From the NCBI RefSeq assembly GCF_012911005.2, contig NZ_WTVS01000057.1:1-35759 (forward strand): a DNA stretch of 35,759 nucleotides, in the 5' to 3' direction. Shown piece after piece: positions 5,526 to 29,129 of this stretch; the first letter of the stretch is position 1, and each line of letters opens with the position of its first letter. A program made the translations under genes and the position numbers. The DNA comes from Aromatoleum toluolicum. GTDB lineage: Bacteria; Pseudomonadota; Gammaproteobacteria; Burkholderiales; Rhodocyclaceae. Below the pieces are notes generated by a model. The model worked only from the letters and a program-made list of their open reading frames with translations, was not told the DNA's origin and did no database searches.

Positions 5526-5545
5526 TGGAGCGGGCGATGGGAATC
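5526..5545 (-). other. presumed attachment site (3' end of tRNA-Gly)
   Basis: The last bases of the tRNA gene, GATTCCCATCGCCCGCTCCA on the minus strand, form the usual crossover region for this integrase class. The tRNA is complete, so the element restored its 3' end on integration. The second copy must lie left of the window, and I find none inside it. Confidence 0.55.
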
Positions 5546-14248: not shown

Positions 14249-15115
14249 ATGATCCACAGCATGACCGGCTTCGCCGTGCAGACCCGCGACCTCGGACGCG
14301 TCAGCATCCACCTCGAGCTGCGCAGCGTGAATTCGCGCTACCTCGACCTGTTTTTCCGCATCGGCGACGAACTGCGCCAGGCCGAACCGGCAATCCGCGA
14401 ACAGATCTCCGCGCGCCTGACCCGCGGCAAGGTCGAATGCCGGCTCAACCTGCAGACCAACGGTGCCGCCCCGCGCACGCTCGCCCTCAACGCCGCGCTG
14501 CTCGATCAGCTGCGCGAAGCCGAAACACGCGTGCGCGACCGCATGCACGACGCCGCCCACCTGTCGGTCGCCGAAGTGCTGCGCTGGCCCGGCATGCTCG
14601 CCGATGACAGCGTCGGCTTCGATGAGCTGCAGCCGGCCGTGATCGAGCTCGCCAAGGCCGCGCTCGACGAACTGGTCGCGACGCGCCGTCGCGAGGGCGC
14701 CAAGCTCGCGGCTATGATCCGCGAACGCCTCGACCGCATGCGCGAGCTCGTCGCCCAGGCCCAGCCGCGCGTCCCCGAACTGGTCGCGGAATACCAGGAG
14801 AAGCTCACGACGCGCCTGCGCGAAGCGGTCGCCTCGCTCGACGAGGACCGCATCCGCCAGGAGGTCGCGCTGTTCGCCCAACGCATCGACGTCGCCGAGG
14901 AGCTGTCGCGCCTGACCGCGCACATCGACGAGGTGCAGCGCATCCTCAAGGCCGGCGGCGCCGCCGGCAAGCGCCTCGACTTCCTGATGCAGGAACTCAA
15001 CCGCGAGGCCAACACGCTCGCGTCGAAGTCCTCCGCGACCGAGGTCACCGGCATCGCGATGGAGATGAAGGTGCTGATCGAGCAGATGCGCGAGCAGGTG
15101 CAGAACATTGAATGA
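14249..15115 (+). CDS. yicC: YicC-family endoribonuclease
   Basis: A 288-residue protein with the YicC N-terminal signature MIHSMTGFAVQTRD and LELRSVNSRYLDL and the C-terminal DUF1732 part (EVALFAQRIDVAEELSRL, RLDFLMQELNREANTL). Members act as endoribonucleases. GGAGA lies 11 bases before the ATG. In most relatives yicC is followed by gmk. Here a terminator and an integrase follow instead. Confidence 0.94.
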   Translation: MIHSMTGFAVQTRDLGRVSIHLELRSVNSRYLDLFFRIGDELRQAEPAIREQISARLTRGKVECRLNLQTNGAAPRTLALNAALLDQLREAETRVRDRMHDAAHLSVAEVLRWPGMLADDSVGFDELQPAVIELAKAALDELVATRRREGAKLAAMIRERLDRMRELVAQAQPRVPELVAEYQEKLTTRLREAVASLDEDRIRQEVALFAQRIDVAEELSRLTAHIDEVQRILKAGGAAGKRLDFLMQELNREANTLASKSSATEVTGIAMEMKVLIEQMREQVQNIE

Positions 15116-15154
15116 CGTTTCGTAGCACGCCACGCCGCACCATCAACCAAGCAG

Positions 15155-15180
15155 AGCCCGCGTAGTTAGCGGGCTTTGTT
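15155..15180 (+). terminator. rho-independent terminator after yicC
   Basis: AGCCCGC and GCGGGCT form a 7-bp stem with a 7-base loop, followed by TTGTT. It lies 40 bases after the yicC stop. It separates yicC from the integrative element. Confidence 0.8.
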
Positions 15181-15222
15181 GTATCGAGCAGCACCACGTC
15201 GTATCATCACATCACGGTATAG

Positions 15223-15276
15223 GTGTGTAACCAGCCGTGTAACCAATGGGCAAAATCTGCCAAAAAGTGGTTACAC
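15223..15276. repeat. left-end GTGTAACCA repeats (integrase arm sites?)
   Basis: GTGTAACCA occurs at 15225-15233 and 15237-15245 (12-bp period) and inverted at 15268-15276 (TGGTTACAC), just upstream of the integrase start. Similar sequence recurs at the right end of the element, which supports recombinase binding. Confidence 0.55.
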
Positions 15277-15291
15277 AAGGATGATGAAGAC

Positions 15292-16551
15292 ATGGGCAAG
15301 CTGTCGGATGTGCAGATTCGCAACTGGATCAAGACCGGCGAACGCTTTGCGGGCAAGGCGGACGGCGATGGGCTGTATCTGCGTTTCCGAGCAGCGGATG
15401 CCACACCCGTCTGGCTGTTTCGCTACCGTTTTGCGGGCAAGGCGCGCGCCATGCTGATGGGCGGCTTCGGCGTTCTGTCCCTCGCCGATGCGCGGAAGGA
15501 AGTGAAGCGCCTAGCTGCTCAGGTGGCACTCGGGATTGACGTTGCCGGCGAGAAGCAGGAACGCAAGGCCGAAGCTGTCGCCAAGATCGAAGCCGCAGCG
15601 CGCGCCGTGACTGTTGCCGACCTCGCGGACGACTACTTCGAGCGGATGATTGCCGGGCGCTGGAAGCACCCCAACATCGTGCGCAGCAGGATCGAGAAGG
15701 ACATCAAGCCCGCCATCGGGAAAATGAAGGTGGAGGACGTGCGCCCTGCCGACATAGACGGACTGCTTCAGGATGTGGTGAAGCGCGGCGCTCCGACCGT
15801 GGCGAACGACGTGCTGCGCTGGGTGCGGCGGATGTTCGACTTCGCGATCAAGCGGCACCTGTGCCAGCACAATCCTGCCGGCGCTTTCGACTTGGCAGAC
15901 GCGGGCGGCAAGGAAGAGGCGCGCGACCGTGCGCTATCCCGCTCCGAGCTGGCGACCTTCTTCAAGGCCATGCGGGAGGCTAAGGGCTTCAGCGTGGAAA
16001 ACGAGCTAGCGGTGAAACTGCTGCTGCTGCTCGCCGTGCGCAAGCAGGAACTGACGGCGGCGCGGTGGGATGAATTCGACCTCGACGCCGCGGTGTGGAA
16101 CCTGCCGGCCGAGCGCACCAAGACCGGCGCGGCTATCGCGATCCCGCTCCCCGCTGTCGCCGTGGAATGGCTCCGCACGCTTCATCGGCTGGCGTGCAGT
16201 TCGGACTACGTTTTCCCCGCTCGCAAGATGCAGCACCGCATGATCCCTCACATCCACGAGAACACACTGAACGTTGCGCTCGCCAAGGTGAAGCACGGAC
16301 TGCCGGCCTTCACGATCCACGATCTCAGGCGCACGGCACGCACGCACCTGGCGGGGCTGGGCGTGCCTCCCCACGTGGCAGAGAAGGTGCTGAACCACAA
16401 GCTGAAGGGCGTGGAAGGGCGCTATGACCGCTACGACTACTTCGAGGAACGGAAGGCCGCGGTGAACCAGTGGGCGGCGCTGCTTGGGCAACTGGAGAAG
16501 GGCGGGGCAGATGTGATCCCGATCCACGAACGGCGAGCCGCTGCCGACTGA
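15292..16551 (+). CDS. int: P4-type tyrosine recombinase (integrase)
   Basis: A 419-residue integrase. Residues 1-95 are the DUF4102 arm-binding domain (GKLSDVQIRNWIKTGERFAG), about 100-210 the core-binding domain, and 215-400 the catalytic domain. Visible catalytic residues are the Arg of LLAVRKQELTAA, the His and Arg of FTIHDLRRTART, the His of LNHKLKGVEGRY and the following Tyr region (RYDRYDYFEERK). The ATG at 15292 was chosen because AAGGA lies ten bases upstream and the family begins MGKLSD. It is unrelated in detail to the longer integrase at 3434-5302, so the two elements integrate independently. Confidence 0.94.
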   Translation: MGKLSDVQIRNWIKTGERFAGKADGDGLYLRFRAADATPVWLFRYRFAGKARAMLMGGFGVLSLADARKEVKRLAAQVALGIDVAGEKQERKAEAVAKIEAAARAVTVADLADDYFERMIAGRWKHPNIVRSRIEKDIKPAIGKMKVEDVRPADIDGLLQDVVKRGAPTVANDVLRWVRRMFDFAIKRHLCQHNPAGAFDLADAGGKEEARDRALSRSELATFFKAMREAKGFSVENELAVKLLLLLAVRKQELTAARWDEFDLDAAVWNLPAERTKTGAAIAIPLPAVAVEWLRTLHRLACSSDYVFPARKMQHRMIPHIHENTLNVALAKVKHGLPAFTIHDLRRTARTHLAGLGVPPHVAEKVLNHKLKGVEGRYDRYDYFEERKAAVNQWAALLGQLEKGGADVIPIHERRAAAD

Positions 16552-16610
16552 AAACAGAGTTTCATCGCCGCCTGACGGATTCAGGCAACGACACAGGGAG
16601 TTACTTCGCC

Positions 16611-16712
16611 ATGAAGAAGCAGACAAAGAAGCCCGGCGCACCCCAAACGCCGCAACAATCGCAGGAACCGAGCCTGATTGAATTGCTGCTGAAAGCACAT
16701 GGGCGGCGCTAA
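16611..16712 (+). CDS. small hypothetical protein, 33 residues
   Basis: MKKQTKKPGAPQTPQQSQEP is followed by a short helix, SLIELLLKAHGRR. The ATG at 16611 is preceded by a GGGAG at a workable distance. The length and Lys/Gln/Pro-rich start give no function. It lies 59 bases after the integrase in the same direction, so it may be cotranscribed. Confidence 0.5.
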   Translation: MKKQTKKPGAPQTPQQSQEPSLIELLLKAHGRR

Positions 16713-16720
16713 CTGAGGTA

Positions 16721-16777
16721 TGCCGCGCCTAGGACGACGGTCCGAAAACCCGATCCCCTTGTCGGGCTGACGCGGCA
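16721..16777 (+). ncRNA. candidate structured RNA in the element
   Basis: TGCCGCG (16721-16727) pairs perfectly with CGCGGCA (16771-16777). Inside lies a second stem, CCCGA/TCGGG (16749-16753 and 16762-16766). The stretch is noncoding, between two genes of the element. The pairing is visible. A role such as a small regulatory RNA, as in satellite phage P4 immunity, is speculation. Confidence 0.35.
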
Positions 16778-16809
16778 CTCATTCAAGGGCTTGCGCATTG
16801 GGGGCGCTG

Positions 16810-17493
16810 ATGATCGAAACAACCTACGTTCGAATCGAGCGTGCAGCGGCAGTGCTGGAGACTGACGAAGATACGCTTCTGATTGCGGCAACGGAGGGGC
16901 GTATCCGCCTGTATGCGCTAGTGAACCGCGATTGCTACGCCGAACTGACAAAGGTGCATTCCGGTGATTACCTCGAAGTGGCGAACCAGCCGTGGGAGAT
17001 GACCGTGCACGAGGAACGGTTTCGCATGTTTCAGTTTGTCCCGATCTTTCCCATCTCAGCGGGACATTTGTTGAAATTTGGACGCGCTGACCTCACGGGT
17101 CATCCGCTGTCGGATGAGGACGAACACGGAATGATCTGGGTCACATGGAATGGCGGACCCTTCGAGCATGAGCAACCGATAGTGGTGCTGCGCTCAGATC
17201 TTTTCCTCCTCCGAGAAGCTGCAGAAGCACTCAGACGGGAAAAGATGCCCGCTGCTGGCACTGTTCGGACTCCTGATGCACAGCTGCCAAGAGGGGCTGA
17301 AACACGTAAGCGGGATACTCTTCTATGTATCCTTGCCGCGATGGCGGACCAAGCCGGCATTGATCCAAGCGAACGAGGCGCAGCGGCGAGGGTCGCGGAA
17401 TGGACTGAGCATATCGGCGCACCCGTCAGCGAGGACACCGTTCGTAACGTCCTGAAGTCGATTCCCGAGGCCACCCAGCGCCGGACCAAGTAA
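16810..17493 (+). CDS. hypothetical protein with C-terminal helical/winged-helix-like segment
   Basis: A 227-residue protein I do not recognise by name. The start MIETTYVRIERAAAVLETDED and ATEGRIRLYALV suggest a first domain that may be HTH-like, of the sort seen in hypothetical proteins next to phage-type integrases. Residues about 170-225 (DTLLCILAAMADQAGIDP, then APVSEDTVRNVLKSIPEA) look like the C-terminal winged-helix segment shared by many such proteins. The ATG at 16810 follows GGGGCG; a TTG at 16798 is possible. A regulatory role is a guess. Confidence 0.75.
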   Translation: MIETTYVRIERAAAVLETDEDTLLIAATEGRIRLYALVNRDCYAELTKVHSGDYLEVANQPWEMTVHEERFRMFQFVPIFPISAGHLLKFGRADLTGHPLSDEDEHGMIWVTWNGGPFEHEQPIVVLRSDLFLLREAAEALRREKMPAAGTVRTPDAQLPRGAETRKRDTLLCILAAMADQAGIDPSERGAAARVAEWTEHIGAPVSEDTVRNVLKSIPEATQRRTK

Positions 17494-17498
17494 CCAAG

Positions 17499-17532
17499 AA
17501 ACCGAATTCGGGAAGAGAAAACCGAATTCGGG
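17499..17532. promoter_or_regulatory. tandem palindromic operator-like sites
   Basis: AAACCGAATTCGGG occurs twice (17499-17512 and 17519-17532). Each copy contains the perfect palindrome CCGAATTCGG, and the copies are exactly 20 bp apart, two helical turns. They lie 75-108 bp upstream of the AlpA-like gene in a 113-bp gap. This geometry suits two dimeric repressors on the same face of the DNA. Which protein binds is unknown. Confidence 0.6.
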
Positions 17533-17606
17533 CTATCGCTCGTTGCATTTCGCCAAAGTCCGCCCCATGCCGCATCAAGCGGCGCAACGCAAAACAGGGG
17601 CGAACC

Positions 17607-17867
17607 ATGCACAGCAACACCACTACCACGCCGAAGCTGAAGACTGCCGGCGCTACGATCCCGCCAGCTCTGGCGAACTTCGACTCGCTGCCCGACAGCG
17701 CGCTGGTCGACGTCGCAACCGTCGCAGCTCTGCTTGGATGCTCCCGTAACACGGTCTGGCGAAAGGCGAGGGCCGGCGCGCTTGCATCGCCGATTAAGAC
17801 CGGACCGAACTCGACCCGCTGGCGCGTCGGCTCGATCCGCGCACACCTCGCCGCCATCATTGGGTGA
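17607..17867 (+). CDS. AlpA/excisionase-like HTH DNA-binding protein
   Basis: An 86-residue protein. After a Thr-rich tail, residues 30-85 form a MerR/AlpA-type helix-turn-helix (LVDVATVAALLGCSRNTVWR, followed by KARAGALASP and WRVGSIRAHLA), the fold used by AlpA activators and by excisionases of integrative elements. The ATG at 17607 has an AGGGG upstream. It begins the replication gene run and lies behind the palindromic sites, so it may control excision or the genes after it. Confidence 0.85.
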   Translation: MHSNTTTTPKLKTAGATIPPALANFDSLPDSALVDVATVAALLGCSRNTVWRKARAGALASPIKTGPNSTRWRVGSIRAHLAAIIG

Positions 17868-17878
17868 GGGCGCGAGCG

Positions 17879-18049
17879 ATGACCGACAACAAAAAGGGCC
17901 GCACCGGACGGCACGACCCCAAGCAATTCAACTTCGACCACTCTACCGGCAATGACGATCCGCTGCGCGGCGGGCACGAGCTGGGTAAGCCCGCACGCCT
18001 GAACCGCCAGCAAAAGCGATCCTGGCGGCGCAAGGGGGGCGCGCGATGA
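17879..18049 (+). CDS. small basic hypothetical protein
   Basis: A 56-residue, strongly basic protein (NKKGRTGRHDPKQFNFDHST near the start, QQKRSWRRKGGAR at the end) with no recognised domain. It starts 12 bases after the AlpA-like gene. Its stop overlaps the next start (ATGA at 18046), so it is translationally coupled to the Toprim gene. Nucleic-acid binding is plausible from charge alone. Confidence 0.7.
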   Translation: MTDNKKGRTGRHDPKQFNFDHSTGNDDPLRGGHELGKPARLNRQQKRSWRRKGGAR

Positions 18050-18930
18050 TCGCCGCCAACATCATCGACGGTTTCCGCGAGGCGATACACCAGGCCGGGC
18101 TGGTTCCGCCTGCCGTGATCGATGCGGACGGGCTGCTGCATCGCTTCCACGTTGAAGGCGACAAACGCGGCTCGCACAACGGCTGGTATCTGCTGCACCT
18201 GAACGGGCGCGCGGCGGGCGCTTTCGGGAGCTGGAAGGCTGGCATTCAATCCTCCTGGGCAGCGGACGGGCAGCGCATGAGCGATGCGGAGCGCGACGCC
18301 TTTGCCGAGCTGGTGAAGACGGCACGCGCTAAAGCGGACGCCGAACGGCGCGCGGAGCATGAAGCACGGGCCATCGAGGCGCGGGCGGAATGGCACCGTG
18401 CCGTGCCTGCCGATCCGGCGCACCCGTACCTTGTCGCCAAGCATGTGCAGCCGCACGACCTGCGACAGATTGGCGGCGCGCTGATCGTGCCTCTGATCGA
18501 CGTGTATGGCCTGCTGTGGAACCTGCAACGCATCCGCACGGATGGTGACAAGCGGTTCCGGCCGGGCCGCGCAGGCGGGCTGTATTCGCCTATTGGCGAC
18601 CTGTCGAATCCGGGGCGAATTCTGATCTGCGAAGGCTGGGCCACGGGCGCGACGCTGCACGAAGAGTCCGGGCATCCGGTGCTGTGCGCGATGAACGCGG
18701 GCAACTTGCTGTCGCTCGCCAAGGCGGCGCGGGCGGCATGGCCTGCTCTGGATCTCGTGATCTGCGCAGACAACGACCGGAACACTGCTGGCAACCCGGG
18801 CGTGACTGCGGCGACCGCTGCCGCGACGGCGACCGGGGCCAAGGTGATCGTTCCCGAGTTCCCCGAAGGAGCGAGCGGTTCGGATTTCAACGACCTGGCG
18901 GCGATCCGCAGGAAGGGGGCCGCGCAATGA
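18046..18930 (+). CDS. Toprim-domain primase-like protein
   Basis: A 294-residue protein. Residues 1-70 include HNGWYLLHLNGRAAGAFGSW, which resembles the start of mobile-element primases. A charged helix (80-120) links to the Toprim domain (about 125-290), with the catalytic Glu196 in ILICEGWATGAT and the metal-binding pair Asp242/Asp244 in LVICADNDRN. GSDFNDLAAI closes the domain. No zinc finger is seen. Proteins of this type pair with DUF3987 helicase-like ATPases in phages and satellites, and the next gene here is exactly that (ATGA overlap). The likely role is priming of element replication. Confidence 0.9.
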   Translation: MIAANIIDGFREAIHQAGLVPPAVIDADGLLHRFHVEGDKRGSHNGWYLLHLNGRAAGAFGSWKAGIQSSWAADGQRMSDAERDAFAELVKTARAKADAERRAEHEARAIEARAEWHRAVPADPAHPYLVAKHVQPHDLRQIGGALIVPLIDVYGLLWNLQRIRTDGDKRFRPGRAGGLYSPIGDLSNPGRILICEGWATGATLHEESGHPVLCAMNAGNLLSLAKAARAAWPALDLVICADNDRNTAGNPGVTAATAAATATGAKVIVPEFPEGASGSDFNDLAAIRRKGAAQ

Positions 18931-20453
18931 TGGGGAATGTGTTGGACCTGAACCAGTTGATCGAGCGGGCGATCGTGCCGGGCGAGGACTGGCCGGAACC
19001 GCAACCGTTGGCGGCAAAAATGGAGCGCGAGCCGTACCCGTTCGACGCGCTGCCCGACACCATCCGTGCGGCGGTGGAGGAAGTCGCGGGTTTCGTGCAG
19101 GCACCGTTGCCTCTGGTGGCGTCGTCGGCGCTTGCGGCGCTGTCACTGGCGCTACAGGCGCATACCGACGTGAAGCGCAGCGAAAAGCTGCAAGGGCCAG
19201 TCGGGCTATTCCTGCTCACCATCGCGGACAGCGGCGAGCGTAAATCGACCTGTGACGGATTTTTCGGCGCGGCGATACGCGAGTATGAATCGCAGCAAGC
19301 AGAGGCCGCCAAAGGACCGCTGAAGGACTACGCGGCGGCACTGGGAGCATGGGAGACGAAACGGGCAGGCATCAAGGACAACATGCGGCAGTTGGCGAAG
19401 GCGAAGAAATCGACCGCCGACGACGAAATGCGCTTGCGTGACCTTGAGCACGACAAGCCCGAACCGCCGAGAGTCCCGAGACTGGTCTATGGCGACGTGA
19501 CACCCGAGGCGCTGGGCTACCAGGTGGCGAAGGTGTGGCCGTCGGCGGGCATCGTATCGAGCGAGGCTGGGGCGGTACTAGGGGCGCACGGCATGGGCAA
19601 GGATTCGGCCATGCGAAATATGGCACTGCTGAATCAGTTGTGGGACGGCGCGACGATATCGAGCGAGCGGCGCACGGTGGAGTCATGGAGCGCACGCGGC
19701 GCGCGGCTGACGATCGCATTGCAGGTGCAGGAAGCGACCTTGCGCGAGTTCTTCACCAAGTCGGGCACTCTCGCACGCGGGACCGGGTTTCTTGCGCGGT
19801 TCCTGATCGCCTGGCCGGAATCGACCCAAGGTTTTCGGCTGTTCAAGGAAGCCCCTGCGTCATGGCTACACCTGGCGGCATTCAATCGGCGTATTGCCTC
19901 GATTCTCGCGCAACCGGCACCGCTGCAAGAGTGGGGCGGACTGGAACCGCCTCTGCTGGCATTGGCACCGGACGCTAAGGCGGCATGGATCGAGTTTCAC
20001 AACGCAATCGAGGGCAAGCTAGCTAGCGGTGGCGAACTCCACGATGTGCGTGACGTGGCATCAAAAATTGCCGACAACGCTGCACGGCTGGCGGCGCTCT
20101 TCCATGTTTTCGAGCAAGGCGCGGGCGGCGCAATTGGCATCGATGCGCTGGAATCGGCAACCTGCATCGTCGCGTGGCACCTGTCGGAGTCGCGGCGTTT
20201 CTTTGGCGAACTCGCATTGCCTGCCGAGATGGCGGGTGCGGCGCGGCTCGACGCCTGGCTGATCGAGCATTGCAGGCGCCACCACACGACCATGATTCCG
20301 ACTAGGGAGGCGCAGCGGTTGGGGCCGGTGCGGGACAAATCCGCCATGGGCGAGGCGCTGGCGGCTCTGGAAGAACTCGACCGGGCGCGGCTGATCCTGG
20401 AGGGCAAGCGCAAGCTGATTGCGATGAATCCGGCGCTGGTAGTCACGCGATGA
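18927..20453 (+). CDS. DUF3987 (YfjI-like) helicase-like ATPase
   Basis: A 508-residue protein of the DUF3987 family. The Walker A-like loop ADSGERKST (about 101-108) is typical of the family, after a FLLTI strand. ALGYQVAKVWPSAGIVSSEAG and the block around WSARGARLTIALQVQEATLR belong to the ATPase core, and GTGFLARFLIAWPESTQG is another family block. The C-terminal part (about 400-508) looks like a winged helix. It probably works with the Toprim protein as a helicase-primase set. The start overlaps the preceding stop (ATGA). Length is normal. Confidence 0.9.
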   Translation: MMGNVLDLNQLIERAIVPGEDWPEPQPLAAKMEREPYPFDALPDTIRAAVEEVAGFVQAPLPLVASSALAALSLALQAHTDVKRSEKLQGPVGLFLLTIADSGERKSTCDGFFGAAIREYESQQAEAAKGPLKDYAAALGAWETKRAGIKDNMRQLAKAKKSTADDEMRLRDLEHDKPEPPRVPRLVYGDVTPEALGYQVAKVWPSAGIVSSEAGAVLGAHGMGKDSAMRNMALLNQLWDGATISSERRTVESWSARGARLTIALQVQEATLREFFTKSGTLARGTGFLARFLIAWPESTQGFRLFKEAPASWLHLAAFNRRIASILAQPAPLQEWGGLEPPLLALAPDAKAAWIEFHNAIEGKLASGGELHDVRDVASKIADNAARLAALFHVFEQGAGGAIGIDALESATCIVAWHLSESRRFFGELALPAEMAGAARLDAWLIEHCRRHHTTMIPTREAQRLGPVRDKSAMGEALAALEELDRARLILEGKRKLIAMNPALVVTR

Positions 20454-20920
20454 CGACCCTATCCGAGCTGATCCATAGAAGGCGGCGCGGCGCTGGTGCG
20501 ACAGCGGCACTTGCGACTTCTGCGACACATGACGAGCAAGAGGCGCGAACTGTCGCAACTGTCGCAACTGTCGCTGTCGCAAAGTCTAGCGAGGACGTGA
20601 CCGCGCGGGCCTGGCTGCTGCATTTCACTGATCGTGATCCGGTGGAAGTCTGGACGGCACCGCCAGCAACGCACGCGGAAATCCTGGCAGCGAACCCTGA
20701 TGCAATCGCAGCGGAACCGCCGATGCTGATCGACGCCGATCCGCCAGCGATGGCGCAATCCTGCAAAGACTGCCGACACCGGGCACGACCAGGGCACGCC
20801 GAGCCGGGTTACTGCGCCATGCGAATCGACACTCCGCACGCCTACGGACCGGGGCATCCCCTGCACTTGCTGCCCGAGGACGGCGGCGCGAGCTGCGAAC
20901 ACTTCGAGGAATGGACATGA
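20450..20920 (+). CDS. hypothetical protein with four-cysteine C-terminal motif
   Basis: A 156-residue protein. The N-terminal 50 residues are low-complexity, including a TVATVATVA repeat encoded by three tandem copies of CAACTGTCG or close variants at 20547-20582. The C-terminal 55 residues hold Cys105, Cys108, Cys122 and Cys149 (SCKDCRH, GYCAMR, GASCEHFEEW), a likely metal-binding knuckle seen in small phage-associated proteins. It overlaps the preceding gene by ATGA. Function unknown. Confidence 0.78.
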   Translation: MTTLSELIHRRRRGAGATAALATSATHDEQEARTVATVATVAVAKSSEDVTARAWLLHFTDRDPVEVWTAPPATHAEILAANPDAIAAEPPMLIDADPPAMAQSCKDCRHRARPGHAEPGYCAMRIDTPHAYGPGHPLHLLPEDGGASCEHFEEWT

Positions 20921-21483
20921 CGAAACGCAAAGTGCCGACCAGGGAAGCGAGGCCGGACCCGGACAAGGAAGCCAAGAACCGCGCCGACGTGGCTACCCAT
21001 GCCGAGACAATGACCGCCGTCGCGGCACTTCGCTTTGCGGGCGTCGTGGGCGAGCAAGATCCACAAACTTTAGTCGCAGAGATGACCGACCGCATCAAAG
21101 CCGTGGTCGGCGGCGACATGCGCGAACCGGAACGGATGCTCATGGGGCAGGCAATCGCGTTACAAGCGATTTTTTCCAGCCTGGCGAACCGGGCCGCGAT
21201 CAACATGGGCGAGTATCCGCAGACCGTCGAGCGTTATATGCGGCTGGCTCTGAAGGCGCAAAGCCAGTGTCGGGCAACGCTCGAAACCCTGGCGGTGATC
21301 AAGAATCCGCCCGTCGTGTTCGCCAAGCAGGCGAACGTCACGACCGGGCCGCAGCAGATCAACAACGGTATAACCGTACCGGCACGCGCGGGGGAAACGC
21401 AAAGCGAGCCGAACAAACTATATAGAGGCGCACGATGGGCAATGGATGGACGCCGGAACGGCGAGCGCGGCAAGCGGAGTTGA
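20917..21483 (+). CDS. hypothetical protein of the element
   Basis: A 188-residue, mainly helical protein. The start (MTKRKVPTREARPDPDKEAK) is charged. The middle (ERMLMGQAIALQAIFSSLAN, GEYPQTVERYMRLALKAQSQ) looks like a helical bundle common in phage and satellite hypothetical proteins. The tail carries PQQINNG, a motif I associate with such proteins. The ATG at 20917 overlaps the previous stop and has GAGGA six to seven bases upstream, so it is preferred over the ATG at 20911. Function unknown. Confidence 0.78.
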   Translation: MTKRKVPTREARPDPDKEAKNRADVATHAETMTAVAALRFAGVVGEQDPQTLVAEMTDRIKAVVGGDMREPERMLMGQAIALQAIFSSLANRAAINMGEYPQTVERYMRLALKAQSQCRATLETLAVIKNPPVVFAKQANVTTGPQQINNGITVPARAGETQSEPNKLYRGARWAMDGRRNGERGKRS

Positions 21484-21644
21484 TTCGCACATGGCGACCG
21501 TGGGAGCACTCAACGGGACCGAAAACCGATGAGGGCAAGGCGACCGTAGGGCGCAACGCCTTCAAGGGCGGCCATCGGGCGCTTCTGCGGGATTTGGCGC
21601 GGGTTCTGCGGGAGCAAGACCTACAGCGGCGCGAGATTGAGTAG
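21435..21644 (+). CDS. conserved small protein (WTPERRARQA type)
   Basis: A 69-residue protein reading WTPERRARQAELIRTWRPWE, then STGPKTDEGKA and NAFKGGHRALLRDL. This pattern recurs in small proteins of phages and integrative elements in proteobacteria. It overlaps the 3' end of the preceding gene by 49 bases in another frame, an unusually long overlap for this cluster. No function is known to me. The family resemblance supports it as a real gene rather than a shadow. Confidence 0.78.
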   Translation: MGNGWTPERRARQAELIRTWRPWEHSTGPKTDEGKATVGRNAFKGGHRALLRDLARVLREQDLQRREIE

Positions 21645-21741
21645 AACTTGTTTGATGTATGCTTTTGTTCTGCCCTGTCATGCCGCGCTGGGATCAGCCA
21701 AGTTGCGAGTGACGGATTCGCGACCGATTGAGGAGGCACAA

Positions 21742-21921
21742 ATGTTTGAGACCAGCCTAGAGCGAACAATCATCGTTACCGCAGTCGTTCTCTGGTTTGC
21801 CCACGGCTGGTATCTGAACGAACGCCTCAAACATGTCCATGAAAAACTCGACCGCATCCTTGACGCATTCGATGGGTTGCGCGACTACCCCTTCGACCGG
21901 GGCGATTCCGCAAGCCGCTGA
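21742..21921 (+). CDS. small single-pass membrane protein
   Basis: A 59-residue protein with one hydrophobic segment at about 10-26 (IIVTAVVLWFAHGWYL) and a charged, helical C-terminus (NERLKHVHEKLDRILDAF). The ATG has GAGGAGG seven bases upstream, a strong ribosome site. It is the last gene of the element, ending just before the right-end repeat. It could be an anchored accessory or immunity factor, but nothing in the sequence shows that. Confidence 0.75.
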   Translation: MFETSLERTIIVTAVVLWFAHGWYLNERLKHVHEKLDRILDAFDGLRDYPFDRGDSASR

Positions 21922-21924
21922 AAA

Positions 21925-21950
21925 GTGTGTAACCAAGCGTGTACCCATTG
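21925..21950. repeat. right-end repeat of the element
   Basis: GTGTGTAACCA followed by CGTGTACCCA matches the left-end sequence at 15223-15248 at 22 of 26 positions, in the same orientation. It is either an arm-binding site or part of the right attachment site. Confidence 0.5.
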
Positions 21951-22283
21951 ATTTGCGGAGTAGGGGTACATCCAGAAGCGGCGAGGCTTTCAAGGCGTCT
22001 TCGATATTCAGGTGCAACATCGAGTGAGCATTGTGTGCTGCATCAAGATATGCCTTCGTCAAGTCAATGCCCGCACAGTTAGCCTCAAGCGGCGGGGGGG
22101 ATGGCGACGGGCGTTACCTGGTCAGTTTTTGGCCGGCGCCAACTTTGATTGTTGTCCAACCAATGTCAGTCATAAGTCTGAATTGTTGTCTTAAGCGCAA
22201 CAGTTAGTCGCGGCAGCGGTGGTATTTCGCCTGCCTGAACGCTCCTACAGTGATCCCCACGGACACTCACAAGGAGCTTCAAG
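21948..22283. other. intergenic stretch right of the element; no intact gene
   Basis: On the minus strand an open frame runs through about 21948-22120 (EANCAGIDLTKAYLDAAH, then NIEDALKASPLLDVPLLRK). It looks protein-like but has no credible start and continues as antisense of the small membrane protein gene. It may be a gene remnant cut at the integration point. The last 80 bases lead into pirin, with AAGGAG upstream of its ATG. No terminator or tRNA is visible. Confidence 0.4.
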
Positions 22284-22994
22284 ATGATCATGATCAGACG
22301 GGCAAACGAGCGCGGCGTGGCGGAATTCGATTGGCTGAGTTCCCGGCACAGCTTTTCGTTTGGCCACTATTACGACCCGGCGCACATGGGCTTCGGCCCG
22401 CTGCGCGTCATCAACGAGGACCGGGTCGTCCCGGGCGAGGGCTTCCCGACGCACGGTCACCGCGACATGGAGATCATCTCCTACGTGCTGGAGGGCGCGC
22501 TCGAACACAGAGACAGCATCGGCACCGGCTCGGTGATCCGGCCGGGGGACGTGCAGCGCATGTCGGCCGGCACCGGTATCAGCCACAGCGAGTACAACCA
22601 CTCGTCGACGGAGCCCGTGCATTTCCTGCAGATCTGGATCGTTCCCGCGGCCCGCGGCCGGCGGCCCGGTTACGAACAGCGCAATTTCCCGCGCGACGAG
22701 CGCCACGGGCGTCTGCGGCTCATCGCGAGTCCCGACGGAAGCGACGGCTCGGTGACGGTTCACCAGGACGTACGCCTCTATTCGACGCTGCTCGACGGCG
22801 ATCAACGCGCAGAACTCGCGCTGGCTGCCGGGCGCAACGCCTGGGTGCAGGTCGCCCGTGGTGAGGTCACCGTCAACGGCAAACGCCTTGCGGTGGGAGA
22901 CGGGGCCGCGATCGATGGCGAGTCATCCGTCGTACTCGACGGTGCCCGCGCCGCGGAGGTGCTGGTGTTCGATCTGCCGGGACAAACGGACTGA
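22284..22994 (+). CDS. pirin family protein
   Basis: A 236-residue bicupin. The metal site is visible as FPTHGHRDMEIISYVLEG with a later His in GISHSEYNHS. The start (RRANERGVAEFDWLSSRHSF) and GFGPLRVINEDRVVPG are the family signatures. Pirins bind iron; some bacterial members (E. coli YhhW) have quercetin 2,3-dioxygenase activity. AAGGAG lies before the ATG. It heads a block of detoxification-like genes and may answer to oxidants or aromatic compounds, which is inferred from family and context. Confidence 0.93.
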   Translation: MIMIRRANERGVAEFDWLSSRHSFSFGHYYDPAHMGFGPLRVINEDRVVPGEGFPTHGHRDMEIISYVLEGALEHRDSIGTGSVIRPGDVQRMSAGTGISHSEYNHSSTEPVHFLQIWIVPAARGRRPGYEQRNFPRDERHGRLRLIASPDGSDGSVTVHQDVRLYSTLLDGDQRAELALAAGRNAWVQVARGEVTVNGKRLAVGDGAAIDGESSVVLDGARAAEVLVFDLPGQTD

Positions 22995-23045
22995 TCGAAG
23001 CGCTTATGCCGTCATCAGGCGATATCGTGCAAGGAGGATGTCGCA

Positions 23046-23078
23046 ATGATGAATGCGCCGGTTCTGGACTTCACGTGA
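23046..23078 (+). CDS. possible 10-residue leader peptide or gene remnant
   Basis: MMNAPVLDFT has a near-ideal ribosome site (AAGGAGG, eight bases upstream) yet stops after ten codons. A strong hairpin follows 13 bases later. It could be a leader peptide or the intact start of a gene deleted here. Confidence 0.35.
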   Translation: MMNAPVLDFT

Positions 23079-23090
23079 CTGAGAAGAACG

Positions 23091-23115
23091 CGCCAGCCCG
23101 CGGGACGGGCTGGCG
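23091..23115 (+). promoter_or_regulatory. strong RNA hairpin between pirin and the GNAT gene
   Basis: CGCCAGCCCG and CGGGCTGGCG form a perfect 10-bp stem with a five-base loop. No T-run follows. Its place between two tiny ORFs fits an attenuator or an mRNA-stabilising stem. Confidence 0.5.
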
Positions 23116-23137
23116 ACAAGACCCCAAGGAGAAGATC

Positions 23138-23182
23138 ATGCACGGACAGGAACTCGCCAACGGACTCGCGGGAGGTCGATGA
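23138..23182 (+). CDS. possible 14-residue leader peptide
   Basis: MHGQELANGLAGGR follows AAGGAG at six bases. Its TGA overlaps the two candidate ATG starts of the GNAT gene (23179 and 23182), so reading it would bring ribosomes to the next start. Too short to judge by sequence. Confidence 0.35.
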   Translation: MHGQELANGLAGGR

Positions 23183-23484
23183 TGACGAAGAACGATGTGA
23201 CCATCGAGCGGGAAGATACGCCGACGAAGGGCCGCTACGTCGCCCGGGTTCCGGGCGTGGCCGAGGAGGCCGAACTCACCTTCAGCAAGGCCGGAGCCGA
23301 GCTGCTGATCGCCGATCACACCGCGGTCCCCGACGCGATGCGCGGCATGGGCGTCGGCGCGTTGCTCGCCGCCCGCCTGGTCGCCGACGCGCGAAAGGGC
23401 GGCTACAGCATCCTCGCGCTGTGTCCGTTCGTACGGGCGCAGGCGCAGCGCCACCCCGAGTGGGCCGACGTCGTCCGGACCTGA
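23182..23484 (+). CDS. YjdJ-type GNAT N-acetyltransferase
   Basis: A 100-residue minimal GNAT domain. It reads GRYVARVPGVAEEAELTFSK, then ADHTAVPDAMRGMGVGALLA with the acetyl-CoA pyrophosphate loop (R-G-M-G-V-G), and ends in LALCPFVRAQAQRHPEW, the usual tail of this short family (YjdJ/CG14615 type). Substrate unknown. The second of two adjacent ATGs (23182) is preferred, with GGAGG six bases upstream. The MFS gene starts four bases after its stop, so they are likely cotranscribed. Confidence 0.88.
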   Translation: MTKNDVTIEREDTPTKGRYVARVPGVAEEAELTFSKAGAELLIADHTAVPDAMRGMGVGALLAARLVADARKGGYSILALCPFVRAQAQRHPEWADVVRT

Positions 23485-23488
23485 TGCC

Positions 23489-25093
23489 GTGACGACCGTG
23501 GCCGTTGCACCGTCCTCCGCATGGACGCCGTTCAGGCATCAGGTCTTCACAGTGCTCTGGACGGCGACCGTCGTCTCGAACGTCGGTACCTGGATGCACG
23601 ACGTCGGCGCGGGCTGGCTGATGACTTCGCTGTCGCCGTCGCCGCTGATGGTGGCACTGGTGCAGACGGCGACGACGCTGCCGATCTTCCTGTTCGCGCT
23701 GCCGGCCGGGGCCCTTGCCGACGTCGTCGACCGGCGTCGCCTGCTGATCACGTTCCAGTCGGTAATGGCGGTGCTTGCGGCACTTCTGGCCGTACTCGTG
23801 TGGCTCGAACGGGCCGACACGCTGGTCCTGCTGCTGATCACCTTCCTGCTCGGGACCTGCGCAGCGTTCATCGCTCCGGCATGGCAGGCGATCGTGCCCC
23901 GGCTCGTGCCGAAGGAAAGCCTGCAGCAGGCGATCGCGATCAATAGCGTGGGCGTCAATATCAGCCGTGCGATCGGGCCGGCGCTGGCCGGCTTCGCGAT
24001 CGTCGCGCTCGGCGCCGCGACGCCGTTCGCCCTGAACGCCGTGAGCTTCATCGGCGTGATCGCGGCCCTCGTCTGGTGGCGGCCGGCGGCCCGACCGACG
24101 GCCGCACTGCCGGCTGAAGCGTTGTGGGAAGGCGTCGTGCTGGGACTGCGTTATGCCCGCTCGAGCCGGCCGCTGAAGGCCACGCTGCTGCGCGCGGCGG
24201 TCTTCTTCCTGCCCGCCAGCGCATTCTGGGCGCTGCTGCCGCTCATCGCCCGGAAGGAACTCGCGGGGAGTGCCACGCTGTACGGCGTCATGCTCGGCAG
24301 CGTCGGAGTGGGTGCCGTGCTGGGCGCGCTCATTATGCCCGCCATTCGCGGCCGGCTCGGGCCCGAACGGCTGGTGATCGGCGCGACGGCCTTGATCGCC
24401 GGCGTGCTGTTCGCAGCCGCAGCCGTGCGCGAGGCGACGGTCCTGACGCTAGCCTGCCTCGCCTTCGGCGCGGGCTGGATCGCGGTCTTGTCGACGCTCA
24501 ATGTCTCGGCGCAGATCGCGTTGCCAGACTGGGTGCGGGCGCGCGGCCTGTCCGTCTATCTCACGGTATTCTTCGGCGCGATGAGCGCCGGCAGCGCGCT
24601 GTGGGGACAGGTTGCGGCGGCGTTCTCGATCCCGGTCTCGCTGCTGGCCGCCGCCGGCGTGCTGCTGCTCGCGATTCCGCTCACCCGCGGGGCGAAACTC
24701 CACCAGGCCGAAGGACTGGACCTGTCGCCGTCAATGCACTGGCCGGCGCCGATCGTGGCCGGTGACGTCGCGGGCGAACGCAGCCCGGTGATGACGACGA
24801 TCGAATACCGCGTGCAGCCGGACAAGGCCGGCGAGTTTCTCGATCGCATGGCCGAACTCGGCCACGCGCGCCGCCGCCTCGGGGCGTACGCGTGGGGCGT
24901 GCTCGAAGATGCTGCTGAGCCCGGCTGCTTCGTCGAGTACTTCGTCGAATCGTCGTGGCTGCAGCATCTTCGCCACCACGAGCGGGTCAGCGGTGCGGAT
25001 CGTGCGGTGCAGGAACGTATCCAGGCCTTGCTCATCCCCGGCAGCAAGCCGGTCCCGCGGCACCTTCTGGGGCCGCAGGATCGGCTTGCTTGA
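23489..25093 (+). CDS. MFS_3-family transporter with C-terminal ABM-like extension
   Basis: A 534-residue protein. Residues 1-410 hold about 12 membrane segments of the EntS-like MFS_3 (transmembrane secretion effector) group, with the loop ADVVDRRRLL after helix 2 and the NSVGVNISRAIGPALAG block. Residues about 425-530 are soluble (TTIEYRVQPDKAGEFLDRMA, CFVEYFVESSWLQHLRHHER) and look like an antibiotic-monooxygenase (ABM) ferredoxin-like fold, an extension known in this transporter group. The likely role is export of a small molecule. It starts at GTG 23489 without a clear ribosome site and converges on the amidohydrolase gene, 15 bp away. Confidence 0.9.
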   Translation: MTTVAVAPSSAWTPFRHQVFTVLWTATVVSNVGTWMHDVGAGWLMTSLSPSPLMVALVQTATTLPIFLFALPAGALADVVDRRRLLITFQSVMAVLAALLAVLVWLERADTLVLLLITFLLGTCAAFIAPAWQAIVPRLVPKESLQQAIAINSVGVNISRAIGPALAGFAIVALGAATPFALNAVSFIGVIAALVWWRPAARPTAALPAEALWEGVVLGLRYARSSRPLKATLLRAAVFFLPASAFWALLPLIARKELAGSATLYGVMLGSVGVGAVLGALIMPAIRGRLGPERLVIGATALIAGVLFAAAAVREATVLTLACLAFGAGWIAVLSTLNVSAQIALPDWVRARGLSVYLTVFFGAMSAGSALWGQVAAAFSIPVSLLAAAGVLLLAIPLTRGAKLHQAEGLDLSPSMHWPAPIVAGDVAGERSPVMTTIEYRVQPDKAGEFLDRMAELGHARRRLGAYAWGVLEDAAEPGCFVEYFVESSWLQHLRHHERVSGADRAVQERIQALLIPGSKPVPRHLLGPQDRLA

Positions 25094-25108
25094 GACGCGC
25101 CGACCTCC

Positions 25109-26959
25109 TCAGATCGCCCAGCAGGAACAACCCAGCGCACCCCAGAACCCGACGAAGTCGGACACCGGGACGTTCGACTTGCGCGCATGGTCGTGCCGAT
25201 GACCATGCACCGTGCAAGCCCCGGCGCACTGGTGGAGTTCGGCGCGTTGAGCCGCTGGAGGGGCGGTCCGATAGTGCCCTGGTACGCGTGTTACGGGCGA
25301 CCACTCCGGCAGCACGGGCAGCGGAGGTGGGGCGAGCGGCGCGAATTCGGCGCTGCCCCAGACGATCCTGCCGCCGACCACCGTCAGCACGGATTCGAGG
25401 CCCTTGATCGCTTCCTCTGGCACGCTGAAGTAGTCGTCGGACAGCACCGCGAGGTCCGCCAGCTGGCCGTTCCTGATCGCGCCCTTGATGCCCTGGTCGG
25501 ACGAGAACCAGGCGCTGCCGGCGGTCCACAATTCGAGCGCCGTCTCGCGCGACAGCCGGTTCTCGTCGCCGTAGAGCTCAAGGCCGCCGACGGTGCGTCC
25601 GGCCACGAGCCAATAGAGCGCAGTCCACGGGTTGTAGCTCGCGACGCGCGTGGCGTCGGTGCCGGCCCCGACGGGAATGCCTGCGTCCAGCATGCGCCGG
25701 ATCGGCGGCGTGAGACGCGCGGCCTCGGCGCCATAGCGATCGACGAAGTACTCGCCCTGGAAAGCCATGCGATGTTGGATCGCGATGCCGCCGCCGAGCG
25801 CTTTCACCCGCTCGATGTTCGGCGCGGAGATGGTCTCGGCGTGGTCGAAGAACCACGGCAGTCCGGCGAAGGGAATGTCGCGATCGACCTTCTCGAAGAC
25901 GTCCAGCATGCGGCCGATCGATTCGTCGTAGGTCGCATGCAGGCGGAACGGCCAGCGGTGCTCGACGAGATGGCGCACGACCTTCTCGAGGTCCGCTTCC
26001 ATCGTCGGCGCGAGGTCCGGCCGCGGTTCGAGGAAGTCCTCGAAATCGGCCGCCGAGAAGGTCAGCATTTCGCCGGCGCCGTTGTGCCGGTAGAAGTCGT
26101 CGCCCTGACGAAGCGTGACCGTACTCGTCCAGTTCTGGAAATCCGCCAGCTCCTCCTTCGGCCGCTGAGTGAAGAGGTTGTAGGAGATGCGCACCGTGAG
26201 CTTCTGCTCGCGTGCGAGGTCATCGATGACGCGATAGTCGTCCGGATAGTTCTGGAACCCGCCGCCCGCATCGATCGCGCTCGTCACCCCCAAGCGGTTC
26301 AGTTCGCGCATGAAGAGGCGGGTGGAGTTCACCTGGTGCTCGAACGGCAGCTTCGGGCCCTTGGCGAGCGTCGCATACAGGATCAGCGCGTTCGGGCGGG
26401 CGATCAGCATGCCGGTCGGTTCGCCGGAGGCATCGCGCTGGATTTCGCATCCCGGCGGCGCCGGCGTGTCCTTGCCGTAGCCCACGGCTCGCAGTGCGGC
26501 GCGATTGAGCAGTGCGCGATCGTAGAGGTGCAGGACGAAGACCGGAGTATCCGGCGCGACGGCGTTGATTTCGTCCAGCGTCGGCATCCGCCTTTCGGCG
26601 AACTGGAACTCGGTCCAGCCCCCGACGACGCGGACCCACTGCGGGCTGGGTGTGCGGGCCGCCTGCTCGCGCAGCATCCGCAGCGCGTCGGCGAGGGAGG
26701 GCACGCCTTCCCAGCGCAGCTCCAGGTTGTAGTTGAGGCCGCCGCGGATCAGGTGCAGGTGGGAGTCGTTGAGTCCGGGGATCACGCGCCGACCGTGCAG
26801 GTCGACGACCTGCGTCGTCGTGCCGCGCTTGGCCATCACGGTCGCGTCGTCGCCCACCGCGAGGAATTTCCCGTCCTTGATCGCGACCGCGCTTGCGGCA
26901 GGTTTGTCGCGATCGACCGTATGGATACGTCCGTTATGCAGGATCAAGTCTGCCGACAT
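25109..26959 (-). CDS. YtcJ-like amidohydrolase with His/Cys-rich tail
   Basis: A 616-residue metal-dependent hydrolase. The first metal ligands are His67 and His69 in DSHLHLIRGG, with FDHAET, the IQHRMAFQG block and the catalytic Asp region VGAGTDATRV further on. It is YtcJ-like, whose members act on N-substituted amides and related compounds. The substrate here is unknown. Beyond the usual end (about residue 545) lies a tail with Cys578, Cys582, His585, His587, His589, His591 and a final ALGCSCWAI (Cys611, Cys613), a probable extra metal site. It is followed on the minus strand by no further gene, and it is preceded 21 bp upstream by the ABM-like gene. Confidence 0.9.
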   Translation of the reverse strand: MSADLILHNGRIHTVDRDKPAASAVAIKDGKFLAVGDDATVMAKRGTTTQVVDLHGRRVIPGLNDSHLHLIRGGLNYNLELRWEGVPSLADALRMLREQAARTPSPQWVRVVGGWTEFQFAERRMPTLDEINAVAPDTPVFVLHLYDRALLNRAALRAVGYGKDTPAPPGCEIQRDASGEPTGMLIARPNALILYATLAKGPKLPFEHQVNSTRLFMRELNRLGVTSAIDAGGGFQNYPDDYRVIDDLAREQKLTVRISYNLFTQRPKEELADFQNWTSTVTLRQGDDFYRHNGAGEMLTFSAADFEDFLEPRPDLAPTMEADLEKVVRHLVEHRWPFRLHATYDESIGRMLDVFEKVDRDIPFAGLPWFFDHAETISAPNIERVKALGGGIAIQHRMAFQGEYFVDRYGAEAARLTPPIRRMLDAGIPVGAGTDATRVASYNPWTALYWLVAGRTVGGLELYGDENRLSRETALELWTAGSAWFSSDQGIKGAIRNGQLADLAVLSDDYFSVPEEAIKGLESVLTVVGGRIVWGSAEFAPLAPPPLPVLPEWSPVTRVPGHYRTAPPAAQRAELHQCAGACTVHGHRHDHARKSNVPVSDFVGFWGALGCSCWAI

Positions 26960-26980
26960 GTGGCATCTCCCGTATTGCGT

Positions 26981-27541
26981 TTATCGATCGCCCGGCTTGT
27001 CGGGCTGCGGGCGCGAGCCGTGCAGCCATGGACGGGCGATCCTGACCAGCAGGGGCATCGCGGCCCAGGTCAGTACGATGACGATTCCGCCGGCAACCAC
27101 GCCGGCGAAGATGAATTTCGGTACGAGCTGACCGAACAGCGGGGCAAGCAGCGCCGACACAATCATGCTCACCGGCCACACGGCGAGCCAGGTGAGCAGG
27201 GCCATTTTCCACCTCGGCGGCGGAGGTCCGGGCGAACGGAACCAGGCTTCGAGGCCGTCGAGGCGCCGATAGACGGGTTCGCCCTCGGTCATTGTCCTCG
27301 CCCGTTCGTCCCAGGTCTTGAACATCGGCGAGTCGTAGAAGGCATCCCGCTCCTCTTCGTTGCGGAAGGTGCGCAGGATGCCGTATTCGCGCGCGTCCGA
27401 GCCCGGCGGCGGCACGAGCAGGCTCGCGCCCATCACGCCGCTGTGCGCGAATGAAGTCGAAAAAAATTCGCGCAGCGCCTGCTGGAATTCGGCCTCGCAG
27501 CCGGCACGTACGCGGCGGGTAATGGCGACGTGTATGGACAT
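26981..27541 (-). CDS. ABM-like monooxygenase domain with membrane anchor
   Basis: A 186-residue protein. Residues 1-95 form an antibiotic-biosynthesis-monooxygenase-like domain (SIHVAITRRVRAGCEAEFQQ, YGILRTFRNEEERDAFYDSP, GLEAWF). A Pro-rich hinge leads to two hydrophobic segments (about 118-140 and 148-172), which places it in the inner membrane. Similar proteins are annotated as putative ABM or DUF proteins. The ATG at 27541 (MSIHVAITRR) has GGAAG at a suitable distance and is preferred over an ATG at 27568. Enzymatic activity is unproven. Confidence 0.87.
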   Translation of the reverse strand: MSIHVAITRRVRAGCEAEFQQALREFFSTSFAHSGVMGASLLVPPPGSDAREYGILRTFRNEEERDAFYDSPMFKTWDERARTMTEGEPVYRRLDGLEAWFRSPGPPPPRWKMALLTWLAVWPVSMIVSALLAPLFGQLVPKFIFAGVVAGGIVIVLTWAAMPLLVRIARPWLHGSRPQPDKPGDR

Positions 27542-27615
27542 GATCGCTTCCGGGAAGTCTCGGCTCATGGTCCGTCACGGCGAGGCCCGGCAGGGCGCAC
27601 GCCGGGACGGGACGC

Positions 27616-28290: not shown

Positions 28291-28351
28291 GCGATTTCTC
28301 CGTGGGGTTGATCGGCATCGGTTCGCTCCTGCGACCGATCCTCATCGCTGC

Positions 28352-28984: not shown

Positions 28985-29081
28985 GGCGGCCATCCCCTTG
29001 CATGCGATTGACGTGCATAGGATGGTCCGTCGCGAACGCGAGCACCATTGACCGTTCCGGCGAATTTACGGTCGCGGAAAT

Positions 29082-29112
29082 GGAGGAGGCGGGTCTCCTC
29101 CTTTTGGAGGAG
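29082..29112. promoter_or_regulatory. alternative GGAGGAG/CTCCTCC hairpins after the response regulator
   Basis: GGAGGAG (29082-29088), CTCCTCC (29095-29101) and GGAGGAG (29106-29112) can fold in two exclusive ways, with loops of six or four bases. More GGAGG repeats continue to 29128. The stretch lies between the response-regulator stop and the pseudo-hydrolase start, both on the minus strand. It could end or modulate read-through. Confidence 0.4.
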
Positions 29113-29129
29113 ATGGAGGAGGAGGGGGG

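Follow-up and report, generated by a model that had tools for sequence, protein, structure and literature searches.

In the window, a stretch of 35,759 nucleotides (nt) from Aromatoleum toluolicum (contig NZ_WTVS01000057.1), an element of ~6.9 kb lies at the 3′ end of yicC (~15095-22027) and encodes, in one set and entirely on the plus strand, an integrase, an AlpA-like helix-turn-helix protein, a Toprim primase, a DUF3987 helicase, and several small proteins. Directly behind the DUF3987 gene are two facing clusters of 5-bp boxes, and our strongest new point is that, across the family, the letters of these boxes match two residues of the DUF3987 protein. We read the element as a satellite-like integrative element whose DUF3987 protein would recognize its own origin and whose transfer would depend on a helper, and we put the probability of this reading at roughly 70%. 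It is a bounded and probably replicating element, and it is satellite-like by resemblance, its layout recalling those of the phage-inducible chromosomal islands (PICI) and the phage-inducible chromosomal minimalist islands (PICMI).

The features at the center of this argument are as follows.
18927..20453, plus strand: DUF3987 (YfjI family) helicase and putative initiator, 508 amino acids (aa) (Pfam 1.4e-94; also PHROGs).
20223..20426, plus strand: C-terminal winged-helix domain of DUF3987 as predicted by AlphaFold, residues ~433-500, which holds residues 460 and 464.
20450..20920, plus strand: open reading frame (ORF) p156, the first ~45 codons of which contain the dyad; cysteines lie in its C-terminal part.
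20498..20580, no strand: iteron dyad, candidate origin, with GCGAC at 20498, a degenerate GCGGC at 20504, GCGAC at 20513 and 20522, and GTCGC at 20552, 20561, 20570, and 20576.

A search for repeated 7-mers pointed to the cluster directly 3′ of DUF3987. We compared 33 family members having at least 43% identity and enough sequence, setting aside L049 and L066, in which the gene is cut off, and five members under 43%. In 29 of the 33, boxes of the form GCkAn, up to 4 + 4, were found 27 to 60 nt 3′ of the DUF3987 gene. The facing cluster outscored all other windows of the locus in 25 members, was at least level in 30, and scored at least 4 in 24; among the five members under 43%, one scored 4 and the cluster was best in none. 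With only GC-n-A fixed, at least 2 + 2 boxes were present in 29/33, at least 3 + 3 were present in 20, and the full spacing (6-9-9 facing 9-9-6) was present in 16, while L060, L064, and L065 had no dyad by this rule and L056 had its arms in the opposite order. The gap between the half-arrays was 25 nt in 21 of the 29 and 14, 27, 34, or 35 nt in the others. The left and right arms agreed at box letters 3 and 5 in 28/29 members (0 of 20,000 permutations). The dyad, lying inside the gene next after DUF3987, is thus a probable origin.

Box type changed at least 12 times on a tree of the 29 DUF3987 proteins. In two pairs of close relatives whose boxes differ, most of the differences fell within the final 60 of ~860 residues (25/64 and 29/49), compared to 3/269 and 5/86 in same-box pairs, the first of which includes a row with an unreliable start. 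The best-matching column corresponded to residue 464 (numbering of the window protein), and the C-terminal part, which makes up 14% of the columns, held 12 of the 15 best. Residue 464 was Arg in 8/8 G-type members and Gln in 20/21 T-type members of this first set. In a later set, made up of rows less than 95% identical to the first (some only 24 to 36% identical; L405, at 24%, aligned weakly), it was Arg with GCG boxes in 7/8 and Gln with GCT boxes in 14/14 readable rows. The later set excludes duplicates, our own copies, and L383, L391, and L393, which are nearly identical to earlier members; L384 and L386 were unreadable because of truncation, and the combined 51 rows omit L417 (C-type boxes, Gln). 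In those rows, Arg was present in 15/16 GCG-type members and Gln was present in 34/35 GCT-type members. Residue 460 was Ala or Ser in 9/9 GCTAA rows and in 2/42 others; this position was chosen from the first 29 rows, to which the later set added just one GCTAA row. When these columns were left out of the tree, box type and residue changed 10 times each, and in eight independent pairs on supported branches, the residue followed the box in 6 to 8 and never went the opposite way (P = 0.008 to 0.031). The AlphaFold model of the C-terminal domain (H-E-H-H-E-E, pLDDT of about 94) is that of a winged helix, and the nearest chains found by Foldseek were mostly winged-helix proteins, e.g., MarR and ArsR regulators. 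Because the box letters covary with residues of this domain, DUF3987 is probably an origin-reading initiator helicase. In titles and abstracts on DUF3987 with satellites, origins, integrase/AlpA, or YfjI, we found no account of such an origin or of the residue code; the available part of one paper lists DUF3987 as a predicted helicase (PMC5862659).

Between the integrase and alpA genes lie an RNA and a variable gene.
16722..16789, plus strand: int-alpA RNA (Rfam RF02996), 64.1 bits, E = 6.4e-12 (gathering cutoff, 35.8).
16810..17493, plus strand: variable slot gene, 227 aa, with its ATG 20 nt after the int-alpA RNA and no Pfam match.

Neither the RNA nor the dyad figured in the initial annotation of this DNA. 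The RNA was present at the Rfam cutoff in 7 of the 41 loci of our set, and in six of these it ends 19 to 21 nt ahead of a gene start (ATG); the six slot proteins (180 to 343 aa) had no Pfam match over the cutoff. It was also found in 70 of 300 genomes of the same order, and in 28 of 30 sampled loci, an ORF of at least 60 aa began 15 to 25 nt after it, compared to 96 of 1,800 random positions (ATG only, about +15 to +27). Starts were chosen from ORFs of at least 60 aa starting within 45 nt, taking the start nearest +20 and favoring ATG, so the spacing leans toward 20; 2 of the 28 starts are GTG, L437 is the second copy in our genome, and L426 and L046 share one and the same gene. Six pairs among 29 slot proteins compared were related at an E value of 1e-3 or better, and the others had no match. 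Rfam types RF02996 as a small RNA gene, whereas its position ~20 nt before a variable gene argues that it is a 5′ leader, probably a translational one. Its loop, CCCUU, is complementary to an AAGGG at the end of the RNA or to the ribosome-binding-like AAGGG behind it and could pair with either. A single-sequence fold was no better than shuffles (z = -0.16), and support for the structure comes from Rfam and from covariation among six sequences; a custom model gave one weak extra match, L069 (24.3 bits, E = 0.0088). In the literature passages found, the int-alpA RNA is merely listed.

The CI/C4 RNA of phage P4 acts as an antisense RNA. We rejected a similar role for the int-alpA RNA, since no consistent complementarity was found in the seven elements. 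In L047, a C4 antisense RNA (RF01695; 7658-7748) lies between integrase and primase, in the place taken by the int-alpA RNA in other members. In L032, L060, L061, and L063, which lack the int-alpA RNA, the gene after int overlaps int by 4 nt, as iolg does in PICMI, and the slot gene may be regarded as the positional counterpart of iolg.

Taken jointly, it is quite probable that a broad satellite-like class uses DUF3987 as its origin-binding initiator helicase; that two residues of its winged helix form a code by which the 5-bp boxes of the dyad are read, in which Arg at 464 would specify G and Gln would specify T at letter 3 and Ala or Ser at 460 would specify A at letter 5; that box and residue have been switched together about ten times, giving each element a private origin; and that the int-alpA RNA serves as translational leader to a regulatory gene that is interchangeable. 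If so, a common domain of unknown function would gain a function and a DNA target, DUF3987 and the int-alpA RNA would be tied to one kind of mobile element, and PICMI-like elements would extend beyond Vibrio. The residue-box match would also provide a DNA-reading rule that can be tested with natural proteins and would make origins predictable from helicase sequence in this subfamily.

The ends of the element are marked by the following features, none of which has a strand.
15095..15115: left attachment (att) core, attL, the 3′ end of yicC (CAGGTGCAGAACATTGAATGA), which aligns with the attR core across a 2-nt gap.
15225..15276: left integrase arm-type sites, GTGTAACC at 15225 and 15237 and an inverted copy at 15269.
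21927..21946: right integrase arm-type sites, GTGTAACC and GTGTACCC, found by repeat comparison.
22009..22027: attR core, CAGGTGC--AACATCGAGTGA, the displaced yicC 3′ end, found by att comparison.

The initial annotation had set the element at 15223..21947, bounded by related repeats. Both the element and the repeats are real (the latter are 26 nt long and 85% identical, with paired GTGTAACC-type sites spaced 12 bp apart), but the repeats look like integrase arm sites rather than the crossover, judging from their layout: the GTGTACCC/GTGCACCC sites of a related element in genome G011, also at yicC (locus L122, positions 3878, 3890, and 3922), are arranged as at the left end of the window element. 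Since the att cores, which are copies of the yicC 3′ end, lie outside these repeats, we place the element at about 15095-22027. The attR core equals the yicC end of relative L117 minus two bases (0 of 300 shuffles reached the score), and beyond it, likeness to the right end of the G011 element continues up to 22083.

yicC was present in 17/17 genomes of the genus, our own counted. Nine yicC regions from relatives were set against the window. In eight, chromosomal similarity ended at the yicC end (window 15111-15120); in the ninth, L122, it passed into the related element. The chromosome resumed to the right of window position 32771 in seven of the nine, at 32771 itself in L112, L114, L115, and L117 and later in L116, L118, and L119, while the right flank was not seen in the stretches read for L113 (within 10 kb) and L122. 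Only 455, 454, 117, and 453 bases separate the flanks in L112, L114, L115, and L117, respectively; because both flanks adjoin closely there, the site exists without the element in relatives, and the empty-site counterpart that the initial annotation had called for is thus at hand. In our genome, the insert at yicC amounts to 17.7 kb, of which 10.7 kb is a block of ordinary genes.

The remaining genes of the element are as follows, all on the plus strand.
15292..16551: tyrosine integrase, 419 aa (Pfam Arm-DNA-bind_3, Phage_int_M, and Phage_integrase).
17607..17867: AlpA-like helix-turn-helix protein, 86 aa (HTH_17 3.8e-6, barely above the cutoff; phrog_66 2.9e-5).
17864..18049: small protein, 61 aa (shorter if starting at ATG 17879), 67% identical over 30 aa in L122.
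18046..18930: Toprim_3 primase, 294 aa (Pfam 5.5e-13; also PHROGs).
20917..21483: p190, conserved, with no assigned function (alignment of 12 sequences).
21435..21644: p69, a small conserved protein paired with p190 (alignment of 11 sequences).
21742..21921: 59-aa protein with a hydrophobic segment; the ORF list starts it at TTG 21637 (94 aa), and the shorter start is our choice.

ATG 15292 is a likelier integrase start than GTG 15223. The observation made at the outset held up: Pfam recovered the set of integrase, AlpA-like regulator, Toprim, and DUF3987; scans with Pfam and PHROGs recognized no capsid, terminase (terS included), relaxase, or mating gene in the element; and the ATGA coupling appears as 4-nt overlaps at 18046, 18927, and 20450 in ORF coordinates, with the letters themselves seen at 18046 and 20450. 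Gene content and the conserved origin-like array support an element that can plausibly integrate and replicate. None of the small proteins matched below an E value of 0.03 in Pfam, PHROGs, or NCBIfam or below 0.1 in PADLOC, so that their suggested role in defense found no PADLOC match. p190 was considered as a candidate small terminase, but it had no PHROG or PDB relative, and its AlphaFold model was poor (mean pLDDT of 56.5, a helical hairpin).

We propose the following course of events. Int would recombine at the 3′ end of yicC, as the att repeats and arm sites suggest. By analogy with PICMI, a trigger would lead AlpA and the slot gene, which follows the int-alpA leader, to activate excision and the replication operon, and the Toprim-DUF3987 pair would replicate the excised circle. 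DUF3987 would bind the GCGAC dyad just behind its own gene through its C-terminal winged helix, with one box type per element; here residue 464 tracks box letter 3 and residue 460 tracks letter 5. The helicase would be loaded at the dyad, where Toprim would prime, and transfer would be carried out by a helper, most likely a phage.

Related elements were found in our own and in other genomes. Our genome holds a second one (G000:C177) at a tRNA-Lys gene, bounded by perfect 47-nt repeats of that gene that lie 7,502 bp apart; its DUF3987 is 92% identical to that of the window and its Toprim-to-p190 block is 80% identical in DNA, whereas its integrase is only 25% identical. The reading frame of DUF3987 is open in both copies. 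The L122 element has an 86% identical integrase, a 74% identical Toprim, a 71% identical p69, and imperfect repeats of its own, and we count it in support of our reading that a DUF927 protein (2.2e-107) there takes the place of DUF3987, with repeats of a GGAACG type near the starts of the helicase gene and the next gene. Exact repeats of at least 14 nt flanked 6 of 22 loci with an integrase match: L003, L042 (Methylomonas sp. LW13; tRNA-Thr, 49 nt, 7,024 bp), L054 (tRNA-Arg, 23 nt, 7,015 bp), L046 (tRNA-Arg, 17 nt, 11,041 bp), L052 (tRNA-Sec, 14 nt, 11,427 bp), and L034 (15 nt, 5,612 bp). The other sixteen include the window and L122, both with imperfect repeats. Among ten noncore proteins taken from L003, L042, L046, L052, L054, and L122, no structural phage family, terminase, relaxase, or mating gene was recognized. 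Toprim and DUF3987 are fused in one ORF of 799 to 863 aa in 10 of 15 mapped loci; the window and L003 have them as separate genes that overlap.

The initial annotation had allowed that the same genes might form an internal block of complete prophages or conjugative elements. Phage records held no close copy (DUF3987 in 3 of 50,697, each under 27% identity, and no match to p190 or p69). Plasmid records contained DUF3987 in 46 of 72,556 (32 to 37% identity among the 20 matches listed) and p190 in 2. The p190-p69 pair is carried by two small Polaromonas RepA/ParA plasmids (L123, 4047-4800; L124, 7883-8922).

The claim that no named family has this exact gene set was too strong: PICMI, of the Vibrionaceae, have nearly the same order, int-iolg-alpA-up1-prim, with a prototype of 6.1 kb, according to the available passages of their description (PMC10803314). 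In those passages, the search model uses DUF3987 and DUF5906, PICMI are confined to the Vibrionaceae and to fis, and no complete PICMI was found outside Vibrio, although 68 of 135 matches to int, alpA, and prim lay outside the Vibrionaceae and were on average larger; the relatives of the window element may be among these. As far as that account goes, the likeness extends to size, the order int-small gene-alpA-small gene-primase, direct-repeat bounds, and the lack of capsid-remodeling genes. Int, AlpA (HTH_17 just over the cutoff), and DUF3987 occur together in the window element and DUF5906 is absent. In contrast with the fis site of PICMI, the window element sits at yicC and its family sits at yicC or near tRNA or transfer-messenger RNA genes; two copies in one genome, the int-alpA RNA, Toprim, and the p190-p69 tail also set it apart. 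Phage-induced excision and the packaging of rolling-circle concatemers mark PICMI; for the window element, dependence on a helper is a prediction. Gram-negative PICI such as EcCICFT073 share with it one-way transcription and, if the dyad is an origin, the placement of that origin directly after pri/rep; in the portion of the literature available, PICI origins are found 3′ of rep and consist of two sets of iterons on either side of an AT-rich region (PMC6092414). The window element has two facing sets and, like PICI, an integrase and an attachment site of its own. The window element differs in its helicase family, its 5-bp boxes with a 9-bp period, and its 25-nt spacer, which is not AT-rich, and no terS or capsid-remodeling gene was recognized in it, although some PICI have terS or capsid genes. 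The YfjI/DUF3987 loci of Legionella and enterobacterial plasmids have the same helicase family at 32 to 37% identity, and in pNDM-CIT an AlpA gene adjoins DUF3987; the two such loci read, L424 and L425, had no GCkA dyad within 300 nt.

Several points weigh against our reading. The evidence on the element consists of sequence and predicted structure, and any helper, induction, excision, copy-number increase, or packaging would be hypothetical; no terS or capsid gene was recognized; and the spacer differs from that of PICI origins. Among the users of yicC are also islands that are reported to be nonreplicating (PMC8978831). L050, whose array includes a single GCGAT box, and L240 are discordant, residues 460 and 464 sit in the helix preceding the usual recognition helix, and the best Foldseek E value was 3.2e-3, so that the winged-helix matches lie above 1e-3. 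In a pattern-only scan of 399 genomes of the order, GCGAC dyads matched 7 genomes and GCTAY dyads matched 17, compared to 16 and 13 for reversed patterns, and such raw counts prove nothing. Because they are no higher than the control, the case for the dyad rests on adjacency to DUF3987: the 29 loci from the scan include 4 repeats, leaving 25 distinct places, and 18 of these sit 29 to 64 nt behind a DUF3987 ORF (two are our own copies and three are near-identical to known members). Among the other seven, three resemble GC-rich coding matches, one (L382) is an array ~2 kb behind DUF3987 in L037, and three are L388, L389, and L390. In a wider sample of 32 DUF3987 loci, 30 of them among the matches listed for 398 genomes of the phylum and two on plasmids, a facing 9-bp array lay within 300 nt in 12/32 (control, 5 in 98 kb of sequence), and it was of the GCkA type in only 7/32, one being our own copy; thus, only part of PF13148 has the code. 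Pattern scans of viral contigs gave mostly unrelated matches, with DUF3987 near the array in 3/120 and 2/120 loci among the matches listed.

Mobilizable genomic islands (MGIs) occur at yicC. The window element could be an integrative element of this kind, mobilized by conjugation in trans, with a replication module that merely keeps the excised circle, an alternative that we regard as unlikely. According to the passages available, genomic islands of Shewanella and Pseudoalteromonas integrate at yicC (PMC8978831), and the att repeats suggest that the integrase of the window element likewise targets the yicC 3′ end; one of the Polaromonas plasmids with p190-p69 is typed as mobilizable. However, the other is typed as nonmobilizable, and Pfam and PHROGs scans recognized no relaxase in the element (oriT was not searched for).

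It is quite unlikely that the dyad, instead of being an origin, regulates the operon as an operator or reflects constraint on the peptide encoded there. An ORF of at least 70 codons does start at the DUF3987 stop in 27/33 members, with the dyad in its beginning in most, but peptide selection does not predict that the letters of the two arms match as reverse complements, the arrays of L036, L038, and L061 lie where no such ORF starts, and the letters track the C-terminal domain of the helicase itself. An origin at the dyad may serve as an operator besides. Very unlikely is an inert remnant of a prophage or larger island that has lost its other genes: no structural genes were recognized and the 10.7 kb on the right is likewise absent from the site in relatives, but L003, L042, and L054 are repeat-bounded copies of 7.0 to 7.5 kb at other sites that include int, primase, helicase, and array, DUF3987 is open in both copies of our genome, and phage records hold no close copies.

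Other arrays and neighbors deserve mention. L037 has a GCTATT dyad about 1965 nt behind DUF3987 in addition to a weak one adjoining the helicase gene. The arrays of L388 (beside hipA), L389, and L390 have no DUF3987 gene near (a weak fragment lies 817 nt off in L389) and may be remnants or belong to another user. By ORF reading, the 10.7-kb block (window 22284-32614), which is absent from the yicC site in relatives, encodes pirin, GNAT, MFS, amidohydrolase, isochorismatase, response regulator, and PAS kinase proteins; its pirin gene has kin at 83 to 85% identity elsewhere in G013 and G014. G015 has a different stretch of ~2.4 kb at the yicC site (L118, 4743-7099), and in G001 (L113) the right flank did not appear within 10 kb; the site is perhaps an insertion hotspot. 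Finally, a second integrase, 28% identical, is encoded on the minus strand at window 4055-5296 and adjoins a tRNA-Gly gene (5526-5599, minus strand), so the left side of the window probably holds another integrated element.

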